From the NCBI GenBank assembly GCA_036559195.1, contig DATBTN010000043.1, forward strand, positions 1 through 51,278: a stretch of 51,278 bases of DNA, given 5' to 3'. How positions within the stretch are numbered: position 1 is the first letter of the stretch; each line of letters begins with the position of its first letter. Below the pieces are notes generated by a model, which was not told where the DNA came from, made no database searches, and saw nothing but the letters and a program-made list of their open reading frames with translations. The DNA is from Candidatus Baltobacteraceae bacterium (GTDB lineage: Bacteria > Vulcanimicrobiota > Vulcanimicrobiia > Vulcanimicrobiales > Vulcanimicrobiaceae). The translations under genes and the position numbers were made by a program. Positions 16,493-26,509 of this stretch are shown piece after piece.

Positions 16493-17358
16493 CAGCGCAG
16501 TTTTAAGATCGACGCGAGGTTTGCCGTATCGTCGATGACCGGTTCGATTTTGCCGGTGGAGGAGGTGAGCAGCGACGTGACGCCCGGGCCGTGTCCGGAG
16601 ACGAACGAGCGGCCGTGCACGACGACGCCGACCGAAATCGCTCCCGTTCGATAGATGCGTCCGAACGAGTGGTCGGCGTTGACGATCGCGACGATATCGC
16701 CCAGACGAAGCTCGCGCAGGCCGTACTGCTCGGCCACGGCATCGTCGAAGGTTTGAATATCGTAGTCGCCGCGTACCACCGTCGAGCGTCCGAGCCCCGA
16801 TCCCATCACCGCGGCGGGAACGATTCGCGCGACGCGCGCGCGGACGTACGACTCGTCGAACTCGAGCCCCCACGCGTCGACGAACTCGGGGTCGGCGTTG
16901 AAAATCTTCACGTCGGGCGTGTCGAGCAATCGCATCCCAAGCCCGCGCGACCAAATTTGGATCTTATCGCCGATCGCCATCTCGCGCATGATCTCGGGCG
17001 TAAAATCCACGAGCACGTGTTCGATGCCGCCGTGCTTGCCGGTAACGCGGCCGCGCTTGCCCTTCGCATCGCCCGTGAGGATCACGGCCTCGTTGCCGAT
17101 GCACGAAAAGGTGTTGAAAGCGACGTTGATGCGATCGTCCGGATTGCGCGCGCTGACGGCCGGCTCGATGTGATCGGCCGCGAAGGCAAAGGCCGAGTCG
17201 CCGACCCGCACGTTGGGATTGATTCCTCCGACGCTCGGAAGGATCAGCGGCTGACCGTCAAAACTGACGTCGTAAAGCCCCGTATTGAGTAAGGCGGGCG
17301 CAACTTCGCCGACTACGGCGGTCGTGACGAGTTCGGCGTGGTTGATACGGACGCTCAC
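16492..17358 (-). CDS. DUF4438 domain protein
   Basis: A 288-aa cytosolic-looking protein of the DUF4438 family, whose function is unknown to me. Family-like segments are the GGINPNVRVGDSAFAF stretch, DHIEPAVSARN, FSCIGNEAVILTGDAKGKRG, VTGKHGGIEHVLVDF, and the GDKIQIWSRGLGMRL strand. The regular Gly-rich beta segments suggest a beta-rich fold. GTG 17358 is chosen because AAGGAG (17364-17369) lies 5 nt upstream and the product then begins VSVRINHAELVTTAVVGEV; the longer frame would run into queD. It is divergent from queD across 61 bp, so a shared promoter region is likely, but a functional link to queuosine is not shown. Confidence 0.75.
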   Translation of the reverse strand: MSVRINHAELVTTAVVGEVAPALLNTGLYDVSFDGQPLILPSVGGINPNVRVGDSAFAFAADHIEPAVSARNPDDRINVAFNTFSCIGNEAVILTGDAKGKRGRVTGKHGGIEHVLVDFTPEIMREMAIGDKIQIWSRGLGMRLLDTPDVKIFNADPEFVDAWGLEFDESYVRARVARIVPAAVMGSGLGRSTVVRGDYDIQTFDDAVAEQYGLRELRLGDIVAIVNADHSFGRIYRTGAISVGVVVHGRSFVSGHGPGVTSLLTSSTGKIEPVIDDTANLASILKLR

Positions 17359-17363
17359 GGGGG

Positions 17364-17369
17364 CTCCTT
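17364..17369 (-). promoter_or_regulatory. Ribosome binding site of the DUF4438 gene
   Basis: AAGGAG on the minus strand, 5 nt before GTG 17358. It fixes the start and excludes the longer frame. Confidence 0.65.
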
Positions 17370-17419
17370 GGCGAGAACGGGGTACGCTCGACCGTGCACC
17401 GAACGGTAAGCGCGCACCC

Positions 17420-17791
17420 ATGCAGATTGTTAAGCATTTCCGGTTCGAGGCCGCGCACGTTCTCCCTTATCACGACGGCAAGTGCTCGCGGCTGCACGGT
17501 CACTCGTACCGCCTCGAGGTGGCAATCGCCGGGCCGCTGCGGCAGGATGGCCCTGCCCGCGGGATGATCGAAGATTTCGACACGATCAAGGCCGTCGTGC
17601 ATCGGCACGTTATCGACGTGCTGGACCACCAGAACCTCAACGACGTCCTCGAGAATCCGACCTGCGAGCGAATCGTCGCCTGGGTTTGGGAGCGCCTGGC
17701 CGCGCACTTGCCCGGCCTCGACACACTCGTGCTCTGGGAGACCGCCACGTCGTGCGCGGTTCTTCGTAAGGCCGATGCTGCAGCTCGCTGA
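17420..17791 (+). CDS. queD: 6-carboxy-5,6,7,8-tetrahydropterin synthase (QueD)
   Basis: A 123-aa enzyme of the 6-pyruvoyl-tetrahydropterin synthase fold. It converts 7,8-dihydroneopterin triphosphate to 6-carboxytetrahydropterin, the first committed step towards preQ0 and queuosine. The zinc ligands are His13, His26 and His28 (FEAAH, LHGHSY), the nucleophilic Cys22 is in GKCSR, and the DHQNLND and TCERIV motifs are present. The length matches bacterial QueD. ATG 17420 begins MQIVKHFRFEAAH. It overlaps queE by 17 bp and starts an operon of overlapping genes. Confidence 0.93.
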   Translation: MQIVKHFRFEAAHVLPYHDGKCSRLHGHSYRLEVAIAGPLRQDGPARGMIEDFDTIKAVVHRHVIDVLDHQNLNDVLENPTCERIVAWVWERLAAHLPGLDTLVLWETATSCAVLRKADAAAR

Positions 17792-18350
17792 GATTTTCTA
17801 CAGCATTCAAGGCGAAGGCACGTACAGCGGAACGCCGGCGGTCTTCGTGCGGCTCGCCGGCTGCAATTTAGCCTGCGATTTCTGCGATACCGACTACTCG
17901 CTGAAGTTCTTCGCATCGGTCTCCGAGGTCGTCGCTCGGGTGCGCGCGATCGGCGGCGCGTGCCCGATGGTGATCCTCACGGGGGGCGAACCGCTCGCGC
18001 AGTCCGAGACTCTCGATCTGATCGGCGCGCTGCGCGACGACGGGCGGCGCGTGCACATCGAATCGAACGGAACGCTCGCGACCGAACTGCCCGACGACGT
18101 GTGGCTTTGCGTTTCGCCGAAGGAGCGCGTCGATCCGCGCATGGCGGAGCGTGCGAACGAGGTGAAGCTGATCGTCGACGAGCGCGTACCCGAAGAACAT
18201 CTCGCGCTCTTCGCGCGACAGCCGACGATTCTGCTGCAGCCCGAAGGCAACAAGCCGCGGAATATCGAGATCGCGCTCGAGTACGCCAAGGCGCATCCCG
18301 TGCGCTTCCGTCTCTCGCTCCAAACGCACAAATTCATCGGCGTCCGATGA
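17775..18350 (+). CDS. queE: 7-carboxy-7-deazaguanine synthase (QueE, radical SAM)
   Basis: A 191-aa radical SAM enzyme that contracts 6-carboxytetrahydropterin to 7-carboxy-7-deazaguanine. The cluster-binding CxxxCxxC is CNLACDFC (Cys30, 34, 37). The substrate motif FYSIQGEGTYSGTP is at the N-terminus and LTGGEPL is the SAM-binding GGE motif. At 191 aa it is at the short end of the family. It overlaps queD by 17 bp and mqnB by ATGA. No queC is in the window, so the ATP-dependent conversion of the 7-carboxy product to preQ0 must be encoded elsewhere. Confidence 0.93.
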   Translation: MLQLAEIFYSIQGEGTYSGTPAVFVRLAGCNLACDFCDTDYSLKFFASVSEVVARVRAIGGACPMVILTGGEPLAQSETLDLIGALRDDGRRVHIESNGTLATELPDDVWLCVSPKERVDPRMAERANEVKLIVDERVPEEHLALFARQPTILLQPEGNKPRNIEIALEYAKAHPVRFRLSLQTHKFIGVR

Positions 18351-18955
18351 TTCTCGTTACGTGCGCGGTGGGTAAAGAGCTGGCATTCTTCGCGCCGCAG
18401 CCGCACGTGGAGATGCTCGTCACCGGCGTCGGCCCGGTCGAGGCGGCGGCCGCCGTGTCGCGCGCGCTCGCGCAGGGCCCATATGACTTGGTGATCAGCG
18501 CGGGCATCGCCGGCGCGTTCGCCGGCGCGGCCGATGTCGGCGACGGCGTGGTCGTCTCCGACGAGTTACTCGAACTCGATATCGAGACCGGCGAGCGAAT
18601 CCCCTTACCGGGCGACGCACGTATCGTCGATCGAGCGAACTCCGATCTCACGCTCGTCGATCGCCTCGTCGAACTCGGCTTCGCGCGCGTTCGCGGTATC
18701 ACGGTCGGGCGCGTGACCGCGACCGGCGCAACGGCGGCGCGGCTCGCCGCGCACGATGTCGGCGTCGAGTCGATGGAAGGGTTTGCGGTATTGCGCGCGG
18801 CCGAGATCGCCGGCGTCCCGGCGGTTGAAGTGCGCGGTATCTCCAACATCGTCGGCGACCGCGCGGAAAGCCGATGGAACTTTGCCGCGGGCGCGGCGGG
18901 TTTAGAACGTGTATTAAACGCTTTGCTCGGTTCGATTGGAACGGTAGATGGATAA
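18347..18955 (+). CDS. mqnB: Futalosine hydrolase (MqnB)
   Basis: A 202-aa nucleosidase of the MTA/SAH phosphorylase fold that removes the base from futalosine to give dehypoxanthine futalosine in menaquinone synthesis. Family features are VTGVGPVEAAAAVSRAL, VISAGIAGAF near residue 45, the ESMEGFAV active-site region and the late VRGISNIVGDR stretch. ATG 18347 overlaps the queE stop by 4 bp (ATGA), and the end overlaps mqnD by 8 bp. Pairing with mqnD supports futalosine hydrolase rather than a general MTA nucleosidase. Confidence 0.88.
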   Translation: MILVTCAVGKELAFFAPQPHVEMLVTGVGPVEAAAAVSRALAQGPYDLVISAGIAGAFAGAADVGDGVVVSDELLELDIETGERIPLPGDARIVDRANSDLTLVDRLVELGFARVRGITVGRVTATGATAARLAAHDVGVESMEGFAVLRAAEIAGVPAVEVRGISNIVGDRAESRWNFAAGAAGLERVLNALLGSIGTVDG

Positions 18956-19784
18956 ACCCCTGACCCTCGCGTACTCGCCCTGTCCCAACGACACGTATAT
19001 TTTCGCCGCCCTCACCAACGGGTTGATCGACGACGTGCCCGAGGTTCGCGTCGCGCTCGAGGACGTCGAGAATCTTAACAACTCCGCTGCCAAAGGCGAT
19101 TACGAACTTACGAAAGTGAGTTACGGTGCGATCCCATCGCTGATGGACAAGTACCGCATCCTACGCGCGGGCGGTGCGCTCGGGCGCGGCTGCGGGCCGC
19201 TGCTGGTAGCGCGTAAGGGCACCTTCACGACGCTCGAGTCGCTCGGGGACAAGCTCATCGCCATCCCGGGCGAGCGCACGACCGCCTTCATGCTGCTGCG
19301 TCTGGCGATGGGGCTGACTCCGCCAATCATCGGTATGCGCTTCGATAAAATCGTCGAGGCCGTCTCTAAGGGAACCGTCGATGCGGGCCTGATCATTCAC
19401 GAATCGCGCTTCACCTATCAAAACGACGGCCTCGTCGAAATCGTGGACTTGGGCGACTGGTGGGAATCGGTCTCGGGCATGCCGATTCCGCTGGGTGCCA
19501 TCCTCGTTCGCAACGATCTCGACGATACGCGGGCAGCCGAGATCGACGATGCGATCCGGCGCAGTTTGAAGTTCGCACGCGAGAACGACGATACGATTAT
19601 CGGCTACGTGCGCGAACACGCTTTCGAGATGGACGATGCGGTCATGCGCAAGCACATCGACCTCTACGTTAACGAGTTCAGCGACGACGTCGGCGACGAA
19701 GGCATCGCGGCGGTTCGCGAACTCTTCAAGCGCGCGCACGCAGCCGGGATTCTTCCCGATCCGATGGAGCCGAAGTTTGTTTAA
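18948..19784 (+). CDS. mqnD: 1,4-dihydroxy-6-naphthoate synthase (MqnD)
   Basis: A 278-aa enzyme of the periplasmic-binding-protein-like fold that converts cyclic dehypoxanthine futalosine to 1,4-dihydroxy-6-naphthoate in the futalosine menaquinone pathway. The N-terminal LAYSPCPNDTYIFAAL is a hallmark of the family, followed by KVSYGAIPSL, GRGCGPLLVARK and DAGLIIHESRFTY. There is no signal peptide, so it acts in the cytosol. It overlaps mqnB by 8 bp and the muramidase gene by 8 bp. mqnA, mqnC and mqnE are not in the window. Confidence 0.94.
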   Translation: MDKPLTLAYSPCPNDTYIFAALTNGLIDDVPEVRVALEDVENLNNSAAKGDYELTKVSYGAIPSLMDKYRILRAGGALGRGCGPLLVARKGTFTTLESLGDKLIAIPGERTTAFMLLRLAMGLTPPIIGMRFDKIVEAVSKGTVDAGLIIHESRFTYQNDGLVEIVDLGDWWESVSGMPIPLGAILVRNDLDDTRAAEIDDAIRRSLKFARENDDTIIGYVREHAFEMDDAVMRKHIDLYVNEFSDDVGDEGIAAVRELFKRAHAAGILPDPMEPKFV

Positions 19785-21009
19785 ATCACTTCGACGGGCC
19801 CTGGCCGCCTTTGCCGTGCTCGCTTTTGCCGCAAGTGCGTTTGCGGGTGCGGGCGAGCTGCCGCGAGCGAAGATCGCGCTCGGCGACGAGGTCTTTCTGC
19901 AATCGGCCTGGCACGATCTGCACGGGCGCTGCGTCGGGGTCATTACGAATCAGACGGGCGTCACGTCGCGGCTGGTCAACATCGTAGACGCCATTAAAGC
20001 CAACCCGCGGATTTGCATCAAGGCAATCTACTCTCCCGAGCACGGCCTGCGCGGCGATCGCCCCGCCGGCAGCTATGTTTCGTCATACACCGACTCGCGC
20101 ACGGGCCTGCCGGTCTATAGTCTCTACGGCAAGCAAAAACATCCCACCGCAAAAATGCTCGCGGGCGTCGACGTGCTGCTCTTCGATATTCAGGATGTCG
20201 GCGATCGCCCGTACACCTACGTTTCGACGATGGCCTACGCGATGGAAGCTGCCAAGGCGTACGGTAAGCAGATCTGGGTTCTGGACCGTCCGAACCCGCT
20301 GGGCGGCGAAGCGGTTGAAGGTCCCGTGCTCGATTCGCGCTTTAAATCGTTTATCGGCCTCTATCCCATAGCGATGCGCCATGCGATGACCGTCGGCGAA
20401 CTCGCGTCGCTCTTCAATACGGAGTACGGCATCGGCGCGAACCTGCGCGTCGTTCGCATGCAGGGCTGGCACCGCAGTATGCTTTGGCCCGAGACTGGGC
20501 TGCAGTGGGTTCAGACTTCACCGAACATCCCGGAGTGGAGCACCGCGGTCGTCTATCCGTGTACCGGATTGCTCGATAATATCGGTCTTAACGGCGGCAT
20601 CGGCACGACCAAACCCTTCAAATATGCAGGCGCGGTCGGCCTCGATGCCTACCGGCTCGCAGCGGCGATGAATGCGAAGGATCTGCCGGGCGTCTATTTT
20701 CGGCCGGCGTATTGGTCGCCGTTCTTCGGCGCGCTCAAGGACCGGCAGGTCGGCGGTGTGGAGTTAGTCGTTTACGATCCGCGCGCGTTCCCATCGGTAC
20801 GCACCGCCCTCGATCTCGCGACCGCCGTGCGCGACATCGCGCCCGCGTTCCTAAAGATCGACGCGAAAGCACTCGATATCGATTGGGGCACCGACTCCCT
20901 GCGACGCGGCCTGCAAGCCGGCCGCTCCGCCGACGCAATCTGGTCGTCCTGGCAGCCCGCAGTCGACCGATTCAAAACGATCCGCGCCAAATATTTGCTT
21001 TACGACTAA
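19777..21009 (+). CDS. namZ: DUF1343 exo-beta-N-acetylmuramidase (NamZ-like), exported
   Basis: About 410 aa. TTG 19777, with GGAG roughly 8-10 nt upstream, gives the signal peptide LFKSLRRALAAFAVLAFAASAFAG, so the protein is exported. NamZ/DUF1343 motifs are VGVITNQTGV, IYSPEHGLRGD, LPVYSLYGK, LLFDIQDVGDRPYTYVSTM and WVLDRPNPLGGE. The characterised Bacillus NamZ removes MurNAc from the non-reducing end of peptidoglycan fragments, so wall turnover or recycling is the likely role. It overlaps mqnD by 8 bp and ends the operon. Its link to menaquinone genes may be only shared transcription. Confidence 0.9.
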   Translation: MFKSLRRALAAFAVLAFAASAFAGAGELPRAKIALGDEVFLQSAWHDLHGRCVGVITNQTGVTSRLVNIVDAIKANPRICIKAIYSPEHGLRGDRPAGSYVSSYTDSRTGLPVYSLYGKQKHPTAKMLAGVDVLLFDIQDVGDRPYTYVSTMAYAMEAAKAYGKQIWVLDRPNPLGGEAVEGPVLDSRFKSFIGLYPIAMRHAMTVGELASLFNTEYGIGANLRVVRMQGWHRSMLWPETGLQWVQTSPNIPEWSTAVVYPCTGLLDNIGLNGGIGTTKPFKYAGAVGLDAYRLAAAMNAKDLPGVYFRPAYWSPFFGALKDRQVGGVELVVYDPRAFPSVRTALDLATAVRDIAPAFLKIDAKALDIDWGTDSLRRGLQAGRSADAIWSSWQPAVDRFKTIRAKYLLYD

Positions 21010-21368: not shown

Positions 21369-21893
21369 TTATTCGCCGTGGCGGGTGCGTAGGTAGTTGA
21401 TCTGCCAGAGATGGATGAAGCGTTGGAGTTCTTCTTCCGTTTTGGGATCGATACGCTCGAAGGAAATGCCGTGCGCGAATTTGCGCGTTTCGACATCGAG
21501 AAACGAGGTGTGCACCTTCGCGTCGATATGAACCGGAGCGAAGCCGGGCGGTGCGACCTTGACCGTTTCCGGGCGCAGTCCGAACGGACTCTGCTCGTAC
21601 ATCTCTTTTTCAACGGTCATCGCCGCCAAGAACTCGTCGGGCAGGTTGAAATCGAGCGTGAGGATCGAATCCTTGATAAAGTCTTCGTCGCACGCCAAAC
21701 GCAGGCCACCGGCGCTCAGATCGTTCGCGCGCGCGCTGCGGCGCCCCGGGCGTCCGGCGAGCGTGTAGAACACGTCGAACTCCACCGGCATGCGAAACGC
21801 GGAGCGCTTCTGATCGGCGCTCGGGACCATGTGACGGACGGATCGCCGCTGCTCGTGTCTCTTCTTGCGGCCTCCGAAAAGGAATGAAAACAT
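21369..21893 (-). CDS. PilZ domain protein (probable c-di-GMP receptor)
   Basis: A 174-aa cytosolic protein. After a basic N-terminus (FLFGGRKKRHEQRRS) the PilZ domain begins at about residue 30 with KRSAFRMPVEFDVFY, supplying the RxxxR half of the c-di-GMP site, followed by ARANDLSAGGLRLACDE, the DxSxxG half. The remainder is beta-strands and a C-terminal helix (TEEELQRFIHLWQINYLR). Both binding motifs are intact. It probably binds cyclic di-GMP and acts on an unknown partner, often motility or surface polysaccharide systems. It is divergent from glcD. Confidence 0.87.
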   Translation of the reverse strand: MFSFLFGGRKKRHEQRRSVRHMVPSADQKRSAFRMPVEFDVFYTLAGRPGRRSARANDLSAGGLRLACDEDFIKDSILTLDFNLPDEFLAAMTVEKEMYEQSPFGLRPETVKVAPPGFAPVHIDAKVHTSFLDVETRKFAHGISFERIDPKTEEELQRFIHLWQINYLRTRHGE

Positions 21894-21954
21894 CGCTCGT
21901 CAAGCCGTTAAAAACTGCAGGCCTCGCCTCCTGCTCGAACGTACCTCAACCTCG

Positions 21955-23334
21955 GTGCTAGAGCAACGCTTGATCGACGCGATCGGTCCCGACGCCGTGA
22001 AGACGGCCCCGGAAGATCTTGCCGTGTATGCCTTCGATGCGTACTCGGAGGGCCCGCCGCCGGCGGCAGTCGTACTGCCTGCATCGACGCGCGATGTGGC
22101 CGCGGTCGTGAAAATCGCGCGCGATTGCGGCGAGCCGATCGTCGCGCGCGGCGCCGGAACCGGTCTCTGCGGCGCGGCGGTCCCGACGCAGGGCGGCATC
22201 GTCGTTTCGTTCGCTCGAATGAACCGCGTACTCGAGATCGATGCACGCAATCGGCGCGCCCGCGTCCAACCCGGGCTCATCAATCTCGAACTCTCGAAAC
22301 GGGTCGCCGCGAACGGGCTCTTTTACGCGCCCGATCCGTCGTCGCAAAAGATCTCGACGATCGGCGGAAATATCGGAACCAACGCCGGCGGCCCGCATTG
22401 CCTTTCGTACGGCACCACCGTCAACCACATTCTCGGTCTCGAGATTATCGACGATTCGGGCGAGGTGTTTACGACCTCGCTCGACGATCCCGGCTACGAT
22501 CTCACCGGCACGCTCGTCGGGAGTGAAGGGACGCTCGGAATCGTCGGCTCCGCGTGGGTTCGTCTGCTGCGCGCTCCCGAGTCGACACGCGTTTGGCTCG
22601 CCGCATTCGGCGACGTCGAATCCGCCTCCGAAGCCGTTTCGGCGATCGTCGGCGCCGGCATCGTGCCGACGGCGCTCGAAATCATGGATGCCGTCATAAC
22701 CCAAGCCGTCGAAACCGCCTTTCACGCCGGCTATCCCACCGACGCCGGCGCCGTACTCCTGATCGAAAACGCCGGCTTTGAAGACGACATGGCCTATGCG
22801 GAACGCGAGATCGAACGCATCGTAAAAAGCCACGGCGCAATCTCGTGGCGCAGCGCGCGTAACGCCGCCGAGCGCGAAGCGCTGTGGGCCGGCCGCAAAG
22901 GGGCGGCGGGCGCGGTCGGCCAGATCGCCCCCAATTACTACATTCAAGACGTCTGCGTGCCGCGCACGAAGCTCCCACAAGCGCTGCGCGCGGTAACGCA
23001 CGCCGCCCGCAGCAACGGGATCGAAGTAGGCAACGTATTCCACGCCGGCGACGGAAACTTACACCCGCTGCTGATGTACGACAAACGCGACGCGCGCCAA
23101 GTCGGTGCGGTAATCGAGGCCGGAAACGAGATACTCGGAGCCGCGATCGACTTGGGCGGTACGATCAGCGGCGAGCACGGTATCGGTTTCGAAAAGCGCG
23201 AGACGCTCACGCGCGTCTTCACGACCGACGATCTCGCGACGATGGCGCGCGTTCGCGACGTCTTCGATCCACGCCGCATGCTCAACCCAGAGAAGATCTT
23301 TCCCAGCGGTGCGTCTTGCGCGGAGGTGCGATGA
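21955..23334 (+). CDS. glcD: FAD-linked oxidase, glycolate oxidase subunit GlcD-like
   Basis: About 459 aa, PCMH-type FAD-binding domain plus C-terminal oxidase domain. It would oxidise glycolate or a similar 2-hydroxy acid. FAD-contact segments are IVARGAGTGLCGAAVPTQGG and STIGGNIGTNAGGPHCLSYG; the C-terminal GNVFHAGDGNLHPLL and SGEHGIGFEKR are typical. The frame extends upstream into the divergent PilZ gene; GTG 21955 is the first start beyond it and gives VLEQRLIDAIGPDAV, but no good ribosome binding site is visible. It overlaps glcE by ATGA. Confidence 0.88.
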   Translation: MLEQRLIDAIGPDAVKTAPEDLAVYAFDAYSEGPPPAAVVLPASTRDVAAVVKIARDCGEPIVARGAGTGLCGAAVPTQGGIVVSFARMNRVLEIDARNRRARVQPGLINLELSKRVAANGLFYAPDPSSQKISTIGGNIGTNAGGPHCLSYGTTVNHILGLEIIDDSGEVFTTSLDDPGYDLTGTLVGSEGTLGIVGSAWVRLLRAPESTRVWLAAFGDVESASEAVSAIVGAGIVPTALEIMDAVITQAVETAFHAGYPTDAGAVLLIENAGFEDDMAYAEREIERIVKSHGAISWRSARNAAEREALWAGRKGAAGAVGQIAPNYYIQDVCVPRTKLPQALRAVTHAARSNGIEVGNVFHAGDGNLHPLLMYDKRDARQVGAVIEAGNEILGAAIDLGGTISGEHGIGFEKRETLTRVFTTDDLATMARVRDVFDPRRMLNPEKIFPSGASCAEVR

Positions 23335-24548
23335 CGCTCGAGCGCGTGGTGCCGGCGAGCGTTGCGGAACTTCGCGAAACGATTGCCGCCTGCGATCGGC
23401 GCGGCGCGGCCATCGTCGTGCAAGGCGGCAACACATTGCGCGGGATGGGGTTTCCGCCGACGCGCGCCGACGTTGAATTGGTAACGACCGGTCTCGACCG
23501 CGTCGTCGCGCACGAGGTTCGCGATCTCACGTGCGCCGTGCAGGCGGGAGTGACGATCGCGGCGCTGGGCGAGGCGCTAGCGGCGGCGGGCCAGTTCGTT
23601 CCGCTCGACGCGCCGGCGCGGCGCACGGCAACCGTCGGCGGAACGATGGCAGCGGGATGGCTTGGCCCGCGCCGACACCGCTACGGACGCGTTCGCGATT
23701 ACGCGATCGGTTCGGAAGTCGTGCTCGCCGACGGCACGGTCGCGCACGCGGGCGGTATGGTCGTTAAAAACGTGACCGGCTACGACATGAGCAAGCTCTA
23801 TATCGGCTCGTTTGGAACGCTCGGCGTTCTCACGCAGCTCAACTTCAAAACGCTGCCGCTTCCCGCGACGGCGCGCGTCGTGCTCGCTCGCCTTCCCGAA
23901 GGCTCTCGTACGCGGGCGATCGCCCATCTCACGAACCTTGCGATCGCGCCTGCGGCGTTGCTCTGCGTCGAAGGGTACCGCAAGGCGATCGATGGCGAGG
24001 ACGGCGTCGACGGCCGCCTCTGCATCTTTTTCGAGGGTTCCGAAGCGCTCGTGGAGCGCGCGACCCGCGATCTGCGCTCGGCACTCGGTCGGGCCGGCGT
24101 ACCGGAGGCAACCATCGTCGACGCGGGCGCGCGCGAGACGTTCCAACGCGCGCTCGATGCGACGATTGCCAACGTCGCCGAACGTTCGGTTACGTACCGA
24201 TCCCTGGGCACACCCGAAAGCGCCGAAACCCGGTCGCTTGCGATGCGCGACCTGGCGAACCGGCACGAACTCTTTACCGACGTGCTGATCGATCCGCTCA
24301 ACGGCGACGCCATCGTGCGCGTGAGCGAGCGCGACACGCTGGCGTTCGCCGCGCGCATCGAGCGCTTCGACGACGTCCTGCACGAGATCGTTCCAAACGC
24401 CGTGGTGATCGCCGGCGCCGCCCCGATGCGCGCCTCTCTGCGCGTGTGGGGCGAAGATCCGCCGGCGCTGGCACGGATGCGCGCGATCAAAACGCGATTC
24501 GATCCGCACAACACGCTCAATCCGGGCCGCTTTCTCGCGGGTCTGTAA
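23331..24548 (+). CDS. glcE: FAD-binding oxidase subunit, GlcE-like
   Basis: A 405-aa FAD-binding subunit that partners GlcD in glycolate oxidase. FAD motifs are IVVQGGNTLRGMG and ATVGGTMAAGWLGPRRHRYG, followed by KNVTGYDMSKLYIGSFGTLG. The C-terminal half resembles GlcE more than D-lactate dehydrogenases. ATG 23331 overlaps the GlcD stop (ATGA). The expected iron-sulphur subunit GlcF does not follow; the next gene is a terpene synthase. Electron transfer must therefore rely on a distant GlcF or another acceptor. Confidence 0.85.
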   Translation: MTLERVVPASVAELRETIAACDRRGAAIVVQGGNTLRGMGFPPTRADVELVTTGLDRVVAHEVRDLTCAVQAGVTIAALGEALAAAGQFVPLDAPARRTATVGGTMAAGWLGPRRHRYGRVRDYAIGSEVVLADGTVAHAGGMVVKNVTGYDMSKLYIGSFGTLGVLTQLNFKTLPLPATARVVLARLPEGSRTRAIAHLTNLAIAPAALLCVEGYRKAIDGEDGVDGRLCIFFEGSEALVERATRDLRSALGRAGVPEATIVDAGARETFQRALDATIANVAERSVTYRSLGTPESAETRSLAMRDLANRHELFTDVLIDPLNGDAIVRVSERDTLAFAARIERFDDVLHEIVPNAVVIAGAAPMRASLRVWGEDPPALARMRAIKTRFDPHNTLNPGRFLAGL

Positions 24549-24553
24549 CGCCG

Positions 24554-25624
24554 ATGCTCGATAGAGAGATCCGGTTCGCCATCGGCATGGTGGTGCGGCG
24601 CCCGGCCCGCTTGCGTTTCCTGCTCCAGGGCGGCCCGCTCGGCGCCCTCGATCTCCTGCATTTTTTGCGTCGCATCGTGCCGGTTGCGAAAGCCGAACTC
24701 GCTCGAATCGAACGAATAGCCGATCGCATTCCCGACGATCGGCTCCGGCACGAAGCCCTGCAGAGCATCGGCACGAAGGCCTATCACGTTGCGGGCGCCG
24801 CGATACTCGCAACGTTTTTGCCCCGCGGCGCCCGCGAGCATTACATCAAAATCGTAACGCCGCTCGAATCCATCTACGACTTCCTCGACAACCTGTGCGA
24901 CCGCCATCCCGACGTGCCGATCGAAGCGTACCCGATCCTTCACCAAGCGCTCGCCGACGCGCTCGATCCCGAGGCGCCGCTGCACGAGTATTACGCGCGC
25001 GGCCCGCTCGGCGACGACGGCGACTATCTACGCTCGCTCGTCGAGCGCACGCGCTCCGCTCTCAAGCGATTGGAAGGACACCAACTGCTCCTTCCCTATT
25101 TTCGCGAGGCGGCAACGCTCTATACGGATCTGCAAACCTTCAAACACTACCCAAAAGAGCGGCGCGAGGACGCCTGCATCGCGTGGTACGAGCGTCAGGG
25201 CGGCCGCTTCGGGGATCTCTCCTGGTGGGAGTTCGCTAGCGCGGCGGGCTCTCAGTTCCAGGTGTACGCTCCGCTCTACGTCGCCTTCTGCAGCGACTTC
25301 CGTCAGCTCGACCGAACGTTTAACGCCTATTTTCCGGCCTTTTCGGCGCTTCACGTGTTGCTCGACTACTTTATCGATCAGCGCGAAGATCGCGAGCACG
25401 GCGAGTTGAATTTCGTGGCGTGTTACGAAGACTTCGCGACGTTCGCTCTCCGCGCGCAGTCGCTCGCCGGCCGCGCGCGAGAGCGATTCGCACGACTTAC
25501 CCGCCCGCGCGCGCACGATTTCGCGCTTCGCATCATGTGTCTGTTCTATCTCACGCATCCGAAGGTTTTCGAGCAAGGGCTCGACGCACAGGCACAGACG
25601 CTCCTGGCGGCCCTCGCCGGCTAG
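24554..25624 (+). CDS. DUF2600 family large-terpene synthase (YtpB, tetraprenyl-beta-curcumene synthase-like)
   Basis: A 356-aa protein clearly related to Bacillus YtpB, which cyclises C35 heptaprenyl diphosphate to tetraprenyl-beta-curcumene. Shared blocks occur in the same order: YDFLDNLCDR (Asp-rich motif, about residue 115), LYTDLQTFKHYP, WWEFASAAGSQ, HVLLDYFIDQREDREHGELNF. The aspartates of both acidic motifs are present, so activity is likely. There is no signal peptide. ATG 24554 is 5 bp after the glcE stop, suggesting co-transcription. The product could be a C30-C35 cyclic terpene used in the membrane, but the substrate length cannot be read from sequence. Confidence 0.9.
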   Translation: MLDREIRFAIGMVVRRPARLRFLLQGGPLGALDLLHFLRRIVPVAKAELARIERIADRIPDDRLRHEALQSIGTKAYHVAGAAILATFLPRGAREHYIKIVTPLESIYDFLDNLCDRHPDVPIEAYPILHQALADALDPEAPLHEYYARGPLGDDGDYLRSLVERTRSALKRLEGHQLLLPYFREAATLYTDLQTFKHYPKERREDACIAWYERQGGRFGDLSWWEFASAAGSQFQVYAPLYVAFCSDFRQLDRTFNAYFPAFSALHVLLDYFIDQREDREHGELNFVACYEDFATFALRAQSLAGRARERFARLTRPRAHDFALRIMCLFYLTHPKVFEQGLDAQAQTLLAALAG

Positions 25625-25666: not shown

Positions 25667-26509
25667 ATGCGTATCGCATTGTTCGGGGCATCGGGGTTCG
25701 TCGGGCGTCATCTCGCGGGCGCGCTGCGCGCGCGCGGGGACGAGGTCCGCACTGGGTCGCTGCGCGACGCCGCGACGGCGGCGGCGCTAGCGGATGGCTG
25801 CGACGCGATCGTCAATCTCGCGGGCGAACCGATCGCGCAGAAGTGGAGCGATGAGGTCAAGCTGCGAATCGAGCGGAGCCGCACGGCGCTGCCCCATGCA
25901 TTCCTCGACGCCGTCGCGACGGTGGCGCAGCGCCCCACGGCATACGTCTCGGCTTCGGCGGTCGGCTATTACGGAACGAGCGAAGAGCGCACGTTCACCG
26001 AAGTGAGTGGACCGGGCGACGACTTTCTGGCGCGCGTGTGCGTGGAATGGGAGCGAGAAGCCGAACGGGCTGCCGGTTTGGGCATGCGCGTCGCGCGGAT
26101 TCGCACGGGGGTTGCGTTGGGGGCCGGAGGCGGCGTACTGGAGCGGCTCGTTCCACCGTTCAAAATGGGCGCCGGCGGTAAAGTCGGCAGCGGCCGTCAA
26201 TGGTACTCGTGGATCCACGTCGCCGATCTGGTCGGCGTCTACCTGCTCGCGCTCGACGGCGGCGAGGGGGCGCTGAACGCAACGGCTCCCACTCCCGTGC
26301 GCAACGAAGAATTCACGCACGAACTCGGCAAGGCGCTGCACCGTCCAACGCTCTTTGCGATTCCCACGTTCGCGATTAAGAACATGCTCGGGGAAGGTGC
26401 GGTCGCGGTACTCGAAGGTCAGCGCGTTTTGCCCGAACGCGCGCAGGCAGCCGGCTATACATTCGCCTTTCCGACGATCGACGCGGCCTTTGCAGACATC
26501 TTCCGCTGA
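25667..26509 (+). CDS. TIGR01777 family NAD(P)-dependent sugar epimerase-like protein (YfcH type)
   Basis: A 280-aa Rossmann protein. The N-terminal nucleotide motif is MRIALFGASGFVGRHLA, NLAGEPI follows near residue 50, and SASAVGYYG carries the Ser/Tyr region. The late WIHVADLVG and a DUF1731-like C-terminal segment (ERAQAAGYTFAFP) are the family signature. The E. coli homologue is YfcH. The reaction is not established for the family. GAAGGCG precedes ATG 25667. It overlaps the acetyltransferase by about 20 bp, so the two form a pair. Confidence 0.9.
   Translation: MRIALFGASGFVGRHLAGALRARGDEVRTGSLRDAATAAALADGCDAIVNLAGEPIAQKWSDEVKLRIERSRTALPHAFLDAVATVAQRPTAYVSASAVGYYGTSEERTFTEVSGPGDDFLARVCVEWEREAERAAGLGMRVARIRTGVALGAGGGVLERLVPPFKMGAGGKVGSGRQWYSWIHVADLVGVYLLALDGGEGALNATAPTPVRNEEFTHELGKALHRPTLFAIPTFAIKNMLGEGAVAVLEGQRVLPERAQAAGYTFAFPTIDAAFADIFR

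Follow-up and report, generated by a model that had tools for sequence, protein, structure and literature searches.

A putative stand-alone class IB large-terpene synthase in Candidatus Eremiobacterota

Introduction

We propose that a DUF2600 gene in a soil bacterium of Candidatus Eremiobacterota probably encodes a stand-alone class IB large-terpene synthase, which would draw on the polyprenyl diphosphate pool of menaquinone biosynthesis and yield a linear or monocyclic polyterpene (C25-C45). The proposal is built on the gene, its genomic setting and a predicted structure. The class IB synthases characterised in the literature that we found come from Bacillus-type Firmicutes only, and the Eremiobacterota sequences make up a second, separately diverged branch that is widespread in a diderm phylum: a known kind of enzyme, in a different phylum and in a stand-alone genomic setting. 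At least 12 near-complete genomes have DUF2600 without a detectable squalene synthase or squalene-hopene cyclase, and because these two enzymes are undetected there, DUF2600 may supply the sole large isoprenoid membrane lipid of such genomes besides quinones. Likewise, since profile searches detected no squalene or hopanoid enzymes in the host genome, the gene may give the host its one means of making a sterol-like membrane lipid.

Results

The DUF2600 protein

Coordinates are positions in the window, the whole 51,278-nt stretch of DNA that was analysed (contig DATBTN010000043.1), and are collected in Table 1. The reading frame is intact, with an ATG, 356 codons and a stop, and it is the single DUF2600 copy that a PF10776 profile search found in the host genome. 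The PF10776 (DUF2600) profile matches residues 43-352 (E 3.4e-81) and covers model positions 1-311 of 328 at 273 bits, against a cut-off of 25. A search of NCBIfam assigned the protein to no family, and PF19086 (Terpene_syn_C_2) gave no match, in a search in which the positive controls were also silent. With phmmer, the sole relative in the PDB was BalTS (5yo8/6loo/6lop, labelled tetraprenyl-beta-curcumene synthase; E 1.3e-42).

Table 1. Positions and supporting matches of the features discussed in the text
Feature	Positions	Strand	Basis
TonB-dependent receptor-like outer membrane protein, carboxypeptidase-regulatory domain, 1213 aa	12784-16425	+	
mqnB (futalosine hydrolase), menaquinone pathway	18335..18955	+	TIGR03664 131.6 bits, above cut-off
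mqnA/mqnD-type menaquinone biosynthesis gene	18948..19784	+	PF02621 E 1.1e-73
glcD-like FAD oxidase gene, conserved neighbour	21865..23334	+	PF01565 + PF02913; glcD model 452 bits, below the 568-bit cut-off
glcE-like FAD-binding gene, directly upstream of DUF2600	23331..24548	+	PF01565
DUF2600 / putative class IB large-terpene synthase gene, 356 aa	24554..25624	+	PF10776, PDB match, AF2 model, dN/dS
First class IB Asp-rich motif DFLDNLCD, residues 109-116	24878..24901	+	regular expression on translation
Second class IB Asp-rich motif DYFIDQRED, residues 271-279	25364..25390	+	regular expression on translation
yfcH / TIGR01777 oxidoreductase, downstream flank of DUF2600	25667..26509	+	TIGR01777 303.5 bits, above cut-off

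Class IB enzymes are distinguished by the Asp-rich motifs DYLDNLxD and DY(F,L,W)IDxxED (PMC7839719). The window protein has both, with Phe for Tyr in the first, where most relatives have DYLDNLCD; regular expressions found no canonical DDxx(D/E) or NSE/DTE motif in its translation, and its motif pattern is thus that of class IB. An alignment of 23 sequences, the others 37-66% identical to the window protein, has 48 invariant columns, among them Asp109, Asp112, Asp116 and Arg117 of motif 1 and Asp271, Asp275, Glu278 and Asp279 of motif 2. The Tyr that follows the first Asp of motif 2 is replaced by Ser or Ala in some relatives. A divergent copy from family f1 (L016:1498-2574, minus strand, genome G040) reads DYLDTLCD and DSFLDQAED, and its acidic residues are kept.

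The AlphaFold (AF2) model, calculated with the 23-sequence alignment as input, has a mean pLDDT of 95.2 and a pTM of 0.93. VIA-align superimposes it on 6loo with Z 41.7 and an rmsd of 2.1 Å over 326 residues, and on 5yo8 with Z 41.0; the next matches are other class I terpene synthases, at Z of about 20. Foldseek concurs (5yo8, E 5.3e-18). The predicted model thus has the class I alpha-helical terpene synthase fold of BalTS. In seven pairs of close relatives dN/dS is 0.09-0.20, a range that indicates purifying selection, and the gene appears to be maintained as an enzyme. The agreement of motifs and profile is far beyond chance. We therefore predict with high confidence in family and fold that the window protein is a genuine YtpB/BalTS-type class IB synthase, and have moderate confidence in its putative terpene synthase activity and product.

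Host, distribution and descent

The host is represented by a 2.48-Mb metagenome-assembled genome (MAG), 96.9% complete, and its named relatives are Ca. Eremiobacterota MAGs (NCBI phylum Vulcanimicrobiota), a group reported to be abundant in oligotrophic environments. We call the host diderm because the window encodes a TonB-dependent receptor and an AcrB-type RND pump and because TEM showed an LPS-covered outer membrane in a cultured member of the phylum (PMC9758169). The first-pass annotation had described a YtpB-type DUF2600 synthase with both Asp-rich motifs in a diderm, non-Bacillus context, and the PF10776 and BalTS matches, the motifs themselves, the fold, the Eremiobacterota relatives and the outer-membrane evidence bear it out.

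DUF2600 is present in 65 of the 148 sampled genomes of the phylum, all of them within two families of one class, here f1 and f3. The scan patterns were built from Eremiobacterota sequences and 80 of 188 loci were kept, so other phyla may carry the gene as well. In the DUF2600 tree a fully supported branch (100/100) parts the Bacillota sequences, BalTS included, from those of Eremiobacterota, and because of this split a recent transfer from Bacillus is not supported by the sequences; f1 and f3 form separate clades. The root of the tree is not known, and the topology fits ancient inheritance or an old single exchange alike. We found no report of the gene in the titles and abstracts of the Eremiobacterota literature on terpenes, hopanoids or squalene.

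Two records may be noted. A sequence submitted as 'Proteobacteria' (L018 / L103; G064:C102, JAJPHJ010000106.1; Centralia_MAG_155) clusters with the f3 sequences in the tree of DUF2600 proteins, and this label is probably wrong. Genome G106 carries two full-length DUF2600 matches (G106:C120:836-1768 and G106:C15:156866-157798).

Gene neighbourhood

The DUF2600 start codon lies 6 bases past the glcE stop codon (24546-24548). The products of glcD and glcE are FAD_binding_4 proteins like GlcD and GlcE, with scores under the NCBIfam equivalog cut-offs. Each of the 16 f1 loci examined has both genes upstream of DUF2600, L046 with a gap of some 2 kb, and 14 of the 16 have yfcH downstream. The first-pass annotation had placed the gene directly after glcDE, which is true as a location, and had taken this placement as a hint of unusual membrane lipid chemistry, which does not hold. 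In f1 genomes that lack DUF2600 (L140-L144; genera g4 and g7) the order is glcD-glcE-yfcH with nothing between, that is, an empty site, which could reflect either loss or later insertion. The surroundings of DUF2600 differ in the sister family f3: no homologue of glcDE lies near it, and it adjoins RapZ/CofD-type genes, with a Met-zincin in one locus. Because of the uninterrupted glcD-glcE-yfcH order and the placement of the f3 gene we rejected glcDE as a functional partner, and we judge these genes to be syntenic neighbours without a functional link to DUF2600.

Where relatives have genes between DUF2600 and yfcH, these vary (M28 peptidase, aminopeptidase P) and include no lipid enzyme. Similarly, no tailoring enzyme or biosynthetic cluster is conserved beside DUF2600 in the f1 or f3 loci.

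Further upstream, mqnB and an mqnA/mqnD-type gene point to a futalosine route to menaquinone, and the relation of mqnB to DUF2600 would be indirect, via the polyprenyl pool. These two genes stand in a row with queD and queE (17285-19784, plus strand), such that queuosine-precursor genes adjoin futalosine-route genes; of 20 relative loci, 14 also have queE, mqnB and the PF02621 gene. A gene for a NamZ exo-beta-N-acetylmuramidase (PF07075 + PF20732) lies at 19807-21009 (plus strand), upstream of the glcDE site, and 14 relative loci have a match in the corresponding position. Scans of the window for tRNAs and Rfam families were empty.

Partner enzymes in the host genome

The genome was searched family by family with profiles, and the controls for HepS, SHC and SQS/PSY all gave the expected signals. 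Two PF00348 prenyltransferase genes were found. The first (L032/C51) directly follows a gene that we take to be ubiE/menG; its product resembles HepT and octaprenyl/decaprenyl synthases, has Ala five residues ahead of the first Asp-rich motif and matches octaprenyl diphosphate synthase 4jxn best in the PDB (E 7.5e-60). The second (L033/C71) follows a gene that is presumably ispH; its product is GGPPS/FPPS-like and has Tyr five residues ahead of the motif. Ala at this fifth position marks long-chain enzymes and Tyr marks short-chain enzymes. In the PDB search the first enzyme is nearer to octaprenyl/decaprenyl synthases than to HepT, and a C35 substrate is thus not assured by the sequence. There are also two UbiA genes in the host genome.

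HepS (PF07307) was found neither in the host genome (G000) nor in G008, and its control was detected in B. subtilis. Likewise, the N- and C-terminal domains of SHC/SqhC (PF13249, PF13243), both detected in B. subtilis, were absent from the host genome, as was SQS/PSY (squalene, phytoene synthase). A single absence from a MAG that is 96.9% complete may be an assembly gap, although the same combination of absences is seen in 12 near-complete genomes, and an unrecognised cyclase outside the named families could exist. The search for partners that the first-pass annotation had proposed thus returned a long-chain prenyl diphosphate synthase and no tetraprenyl-beta-curcumene or squalene-hopene cyclase, and with HepS, SHC/SqhC and SQS/PSY undetected the parallel that it had drawn to the C35 terpenes of Bacillus is not supported.

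The phylum as a whole has SHC in 94 and SQS/PSY in 105 of 148 genomes. SHC is present in 38 of the 65 DUF2600 genomes and missing from the other 27; 15 of these 27 are also without SQS/PSY, and 12 of the 15 are at least 92% complete. Because of these 27 and 15 genomes, DUF2600 in this phylum is independent of a class II cyclase. Five genomes with DUF2600 and without SHC and SQS/PSY (G022, G034, G040, G024 and G044) carry two prenyltransferases and no more, matching the two kinds in the host; G008 has four.

Discussion

How would such an enzyme work, and what would it make? We propose that Mg2+ is held by Asp109, Asp112 and Asp116 together with Asp271, Asp275, Glu278 and Asp279, and that, by class I chemistry, the bound Mg2+ would trigger diphosphate ionisation in an all-E prenyl diphosphate of medium or long chain. 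Quenching of the resulting cation could then give a linear beta-prene, or its closure a single curcumene-type ring. The enzyme likely shares its substrate with the menaquinone route, given the long-chain trans-prenyltransferase right after menG/ubiE and the FPP/GGPP-type enzyme beside ispH. Because no class II cyclase was detected in the host genome, the product is probably final: a membrane-resident C25-C45 polyterpene hydrocarbon that would need no hopanoid pathway. There is precedent in B. subtilis, where YtpB closes one ring (PMC7839719) and spores accumulate the equivalent intermediate, tetraprenyl curcumene, as such (PMC11708026). The PDB title of 5yo8 is that of a beta-C25/C30/C35-prene synthase, with linear products, and since this is the nearest solved enzyme, the name 'tetraprenyl-beta-curcumene' is not inferable from sequence. 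Chain length, the choice between a linear and a monocyclic product, and the membrane role are the least certain parts of the proposal, and the membrane role is one that we infer. A bolder version, which we consider rather unlikely, is that in this diderm lineage without a hopanoid pathway the stand-alone synthase makes a C40-C45 hydrocarbon of menaquinone length, the only surrogate for sterols or hopanoids and a class of membrane lipid not yet described.

A cultured relative brings the product within reach. Genome G008, which we take to be that of Vulcanimicrobium alpinum WC8-2, has DUF2600 behind glcDE (L002/L034), as well as SHC and SQS/PSY. The description of V. alpinum mentions 'seven unidentified lipids' and a non-spore-forming genus, and it gives the major quinone as MK-9 in the text and as MK-7 in Table 1 (PMC9758169). 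This conflict bears on the chain length that reaches the DUF2600 enzyme. With an orthologue in culture and seven unidentified lipids, the product is directly testable.

Four other explanations were weighed. The enzyme could instead take short substrates (FPP, GGPP or GFPP), and its product would then be a secondary metabolite, secreted or volatile, of the sesqui-, di- or sesterterpene type; the 5yo8 title implies that BalTS takes more than one chain length, and the host has its GGPPS/FPPS-like enzyme. However, neither f1 nor f3 loci have tailoring enzymes or a cluster beside the gene, and broad retention under purifying selection suits a housekeeping lipid more than a volatile, which makes this explanation unlikely. 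We consider it quite unlikely that the protein is a genuine tetraprenyl-beta-curcumene synthase and belongs to a sporulene pathway like that of Bacillus, which leads from heptaprenyl diphosphate through tetraprenyl-beta-curcumene to a cyclised C35 product. The family and motifs are those of YtpB, and the HepT-like enzyme beside menG recalls the Bacillus arrangement hepS-menG-hepT. The V. alpinum report can be read both ways, with its MK-7 in favour and its MK-9 and non-spore-forming genus against (PMC9758169). The title of the closest solved relative, beta-C25/C30/C35-prene synthase, also speaks against it, as do HepS and SHC/SqhC, neither of which was detected in the host genome; we accordingly do not assign the gene to the Bacillus sesquarterpene/sporulene pathway, with the small doubt that 96.9% completeness leaves.

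It is very unlikely that DUF2600 serves to relieve the menaquinone route of excess long-chain prenyl diphosphate, its product being incidental. Loss of YtpB together with MenA limitation does lead to a build-up of heptaprenyl diphosphate in B. subtilis (PMC7038271), and the candidate substrate enzyme adjoins menG; many relatives, however, are without DUF2600, and such relief is therefore not generally needed in the phylum. Finally, the replacement of the motif 2 Tyr by Ser or Ala in some relatives might suggest that terpene synthase activity was lost and the fold kept for another task, which we regard as highly improbable, since every motif acid is conserved throughout the 23 aligned sequences, with identities of 37-66% to the window protein, and purifying selection is strong. 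Thus, a stand-alone class IB synthase that feeds on the menaquinone polyprenyl pool is the reading that we prefer.

Comparison with known systems

The hopanoid pathway of other Eremiobacterota (SQS/HpnCDE and squalene-hopene cyclase) also ends in an isoprenoid membrane lipid and is a possible functional equivalent, but its enzymes are unrelated to the DUF2600 enzyme and none was detected in the host genome. YtpB of B. subtilis shares the PF10776 family with the window protein, and B. subtilis was the sole match among 14 control genomes. However, B. subtilis has HepS and SqhC, both undetected in the host, and the host clade stands apart from Bacillota. BalTS of Bacillus alcalophilus (PDB 5YO8, 6LOO) is alike in its whole-length fold, with 30% identity over the structure alignment, and in both Asp-rich motifs. 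In comparison to BalTS, the window protein belongs to another host phylum, a diderm one, its activity is a prediction, its first motif has Phe in place of Tyr, and it has, together with some of its relatives, about 25 additional residues near the N terminus.
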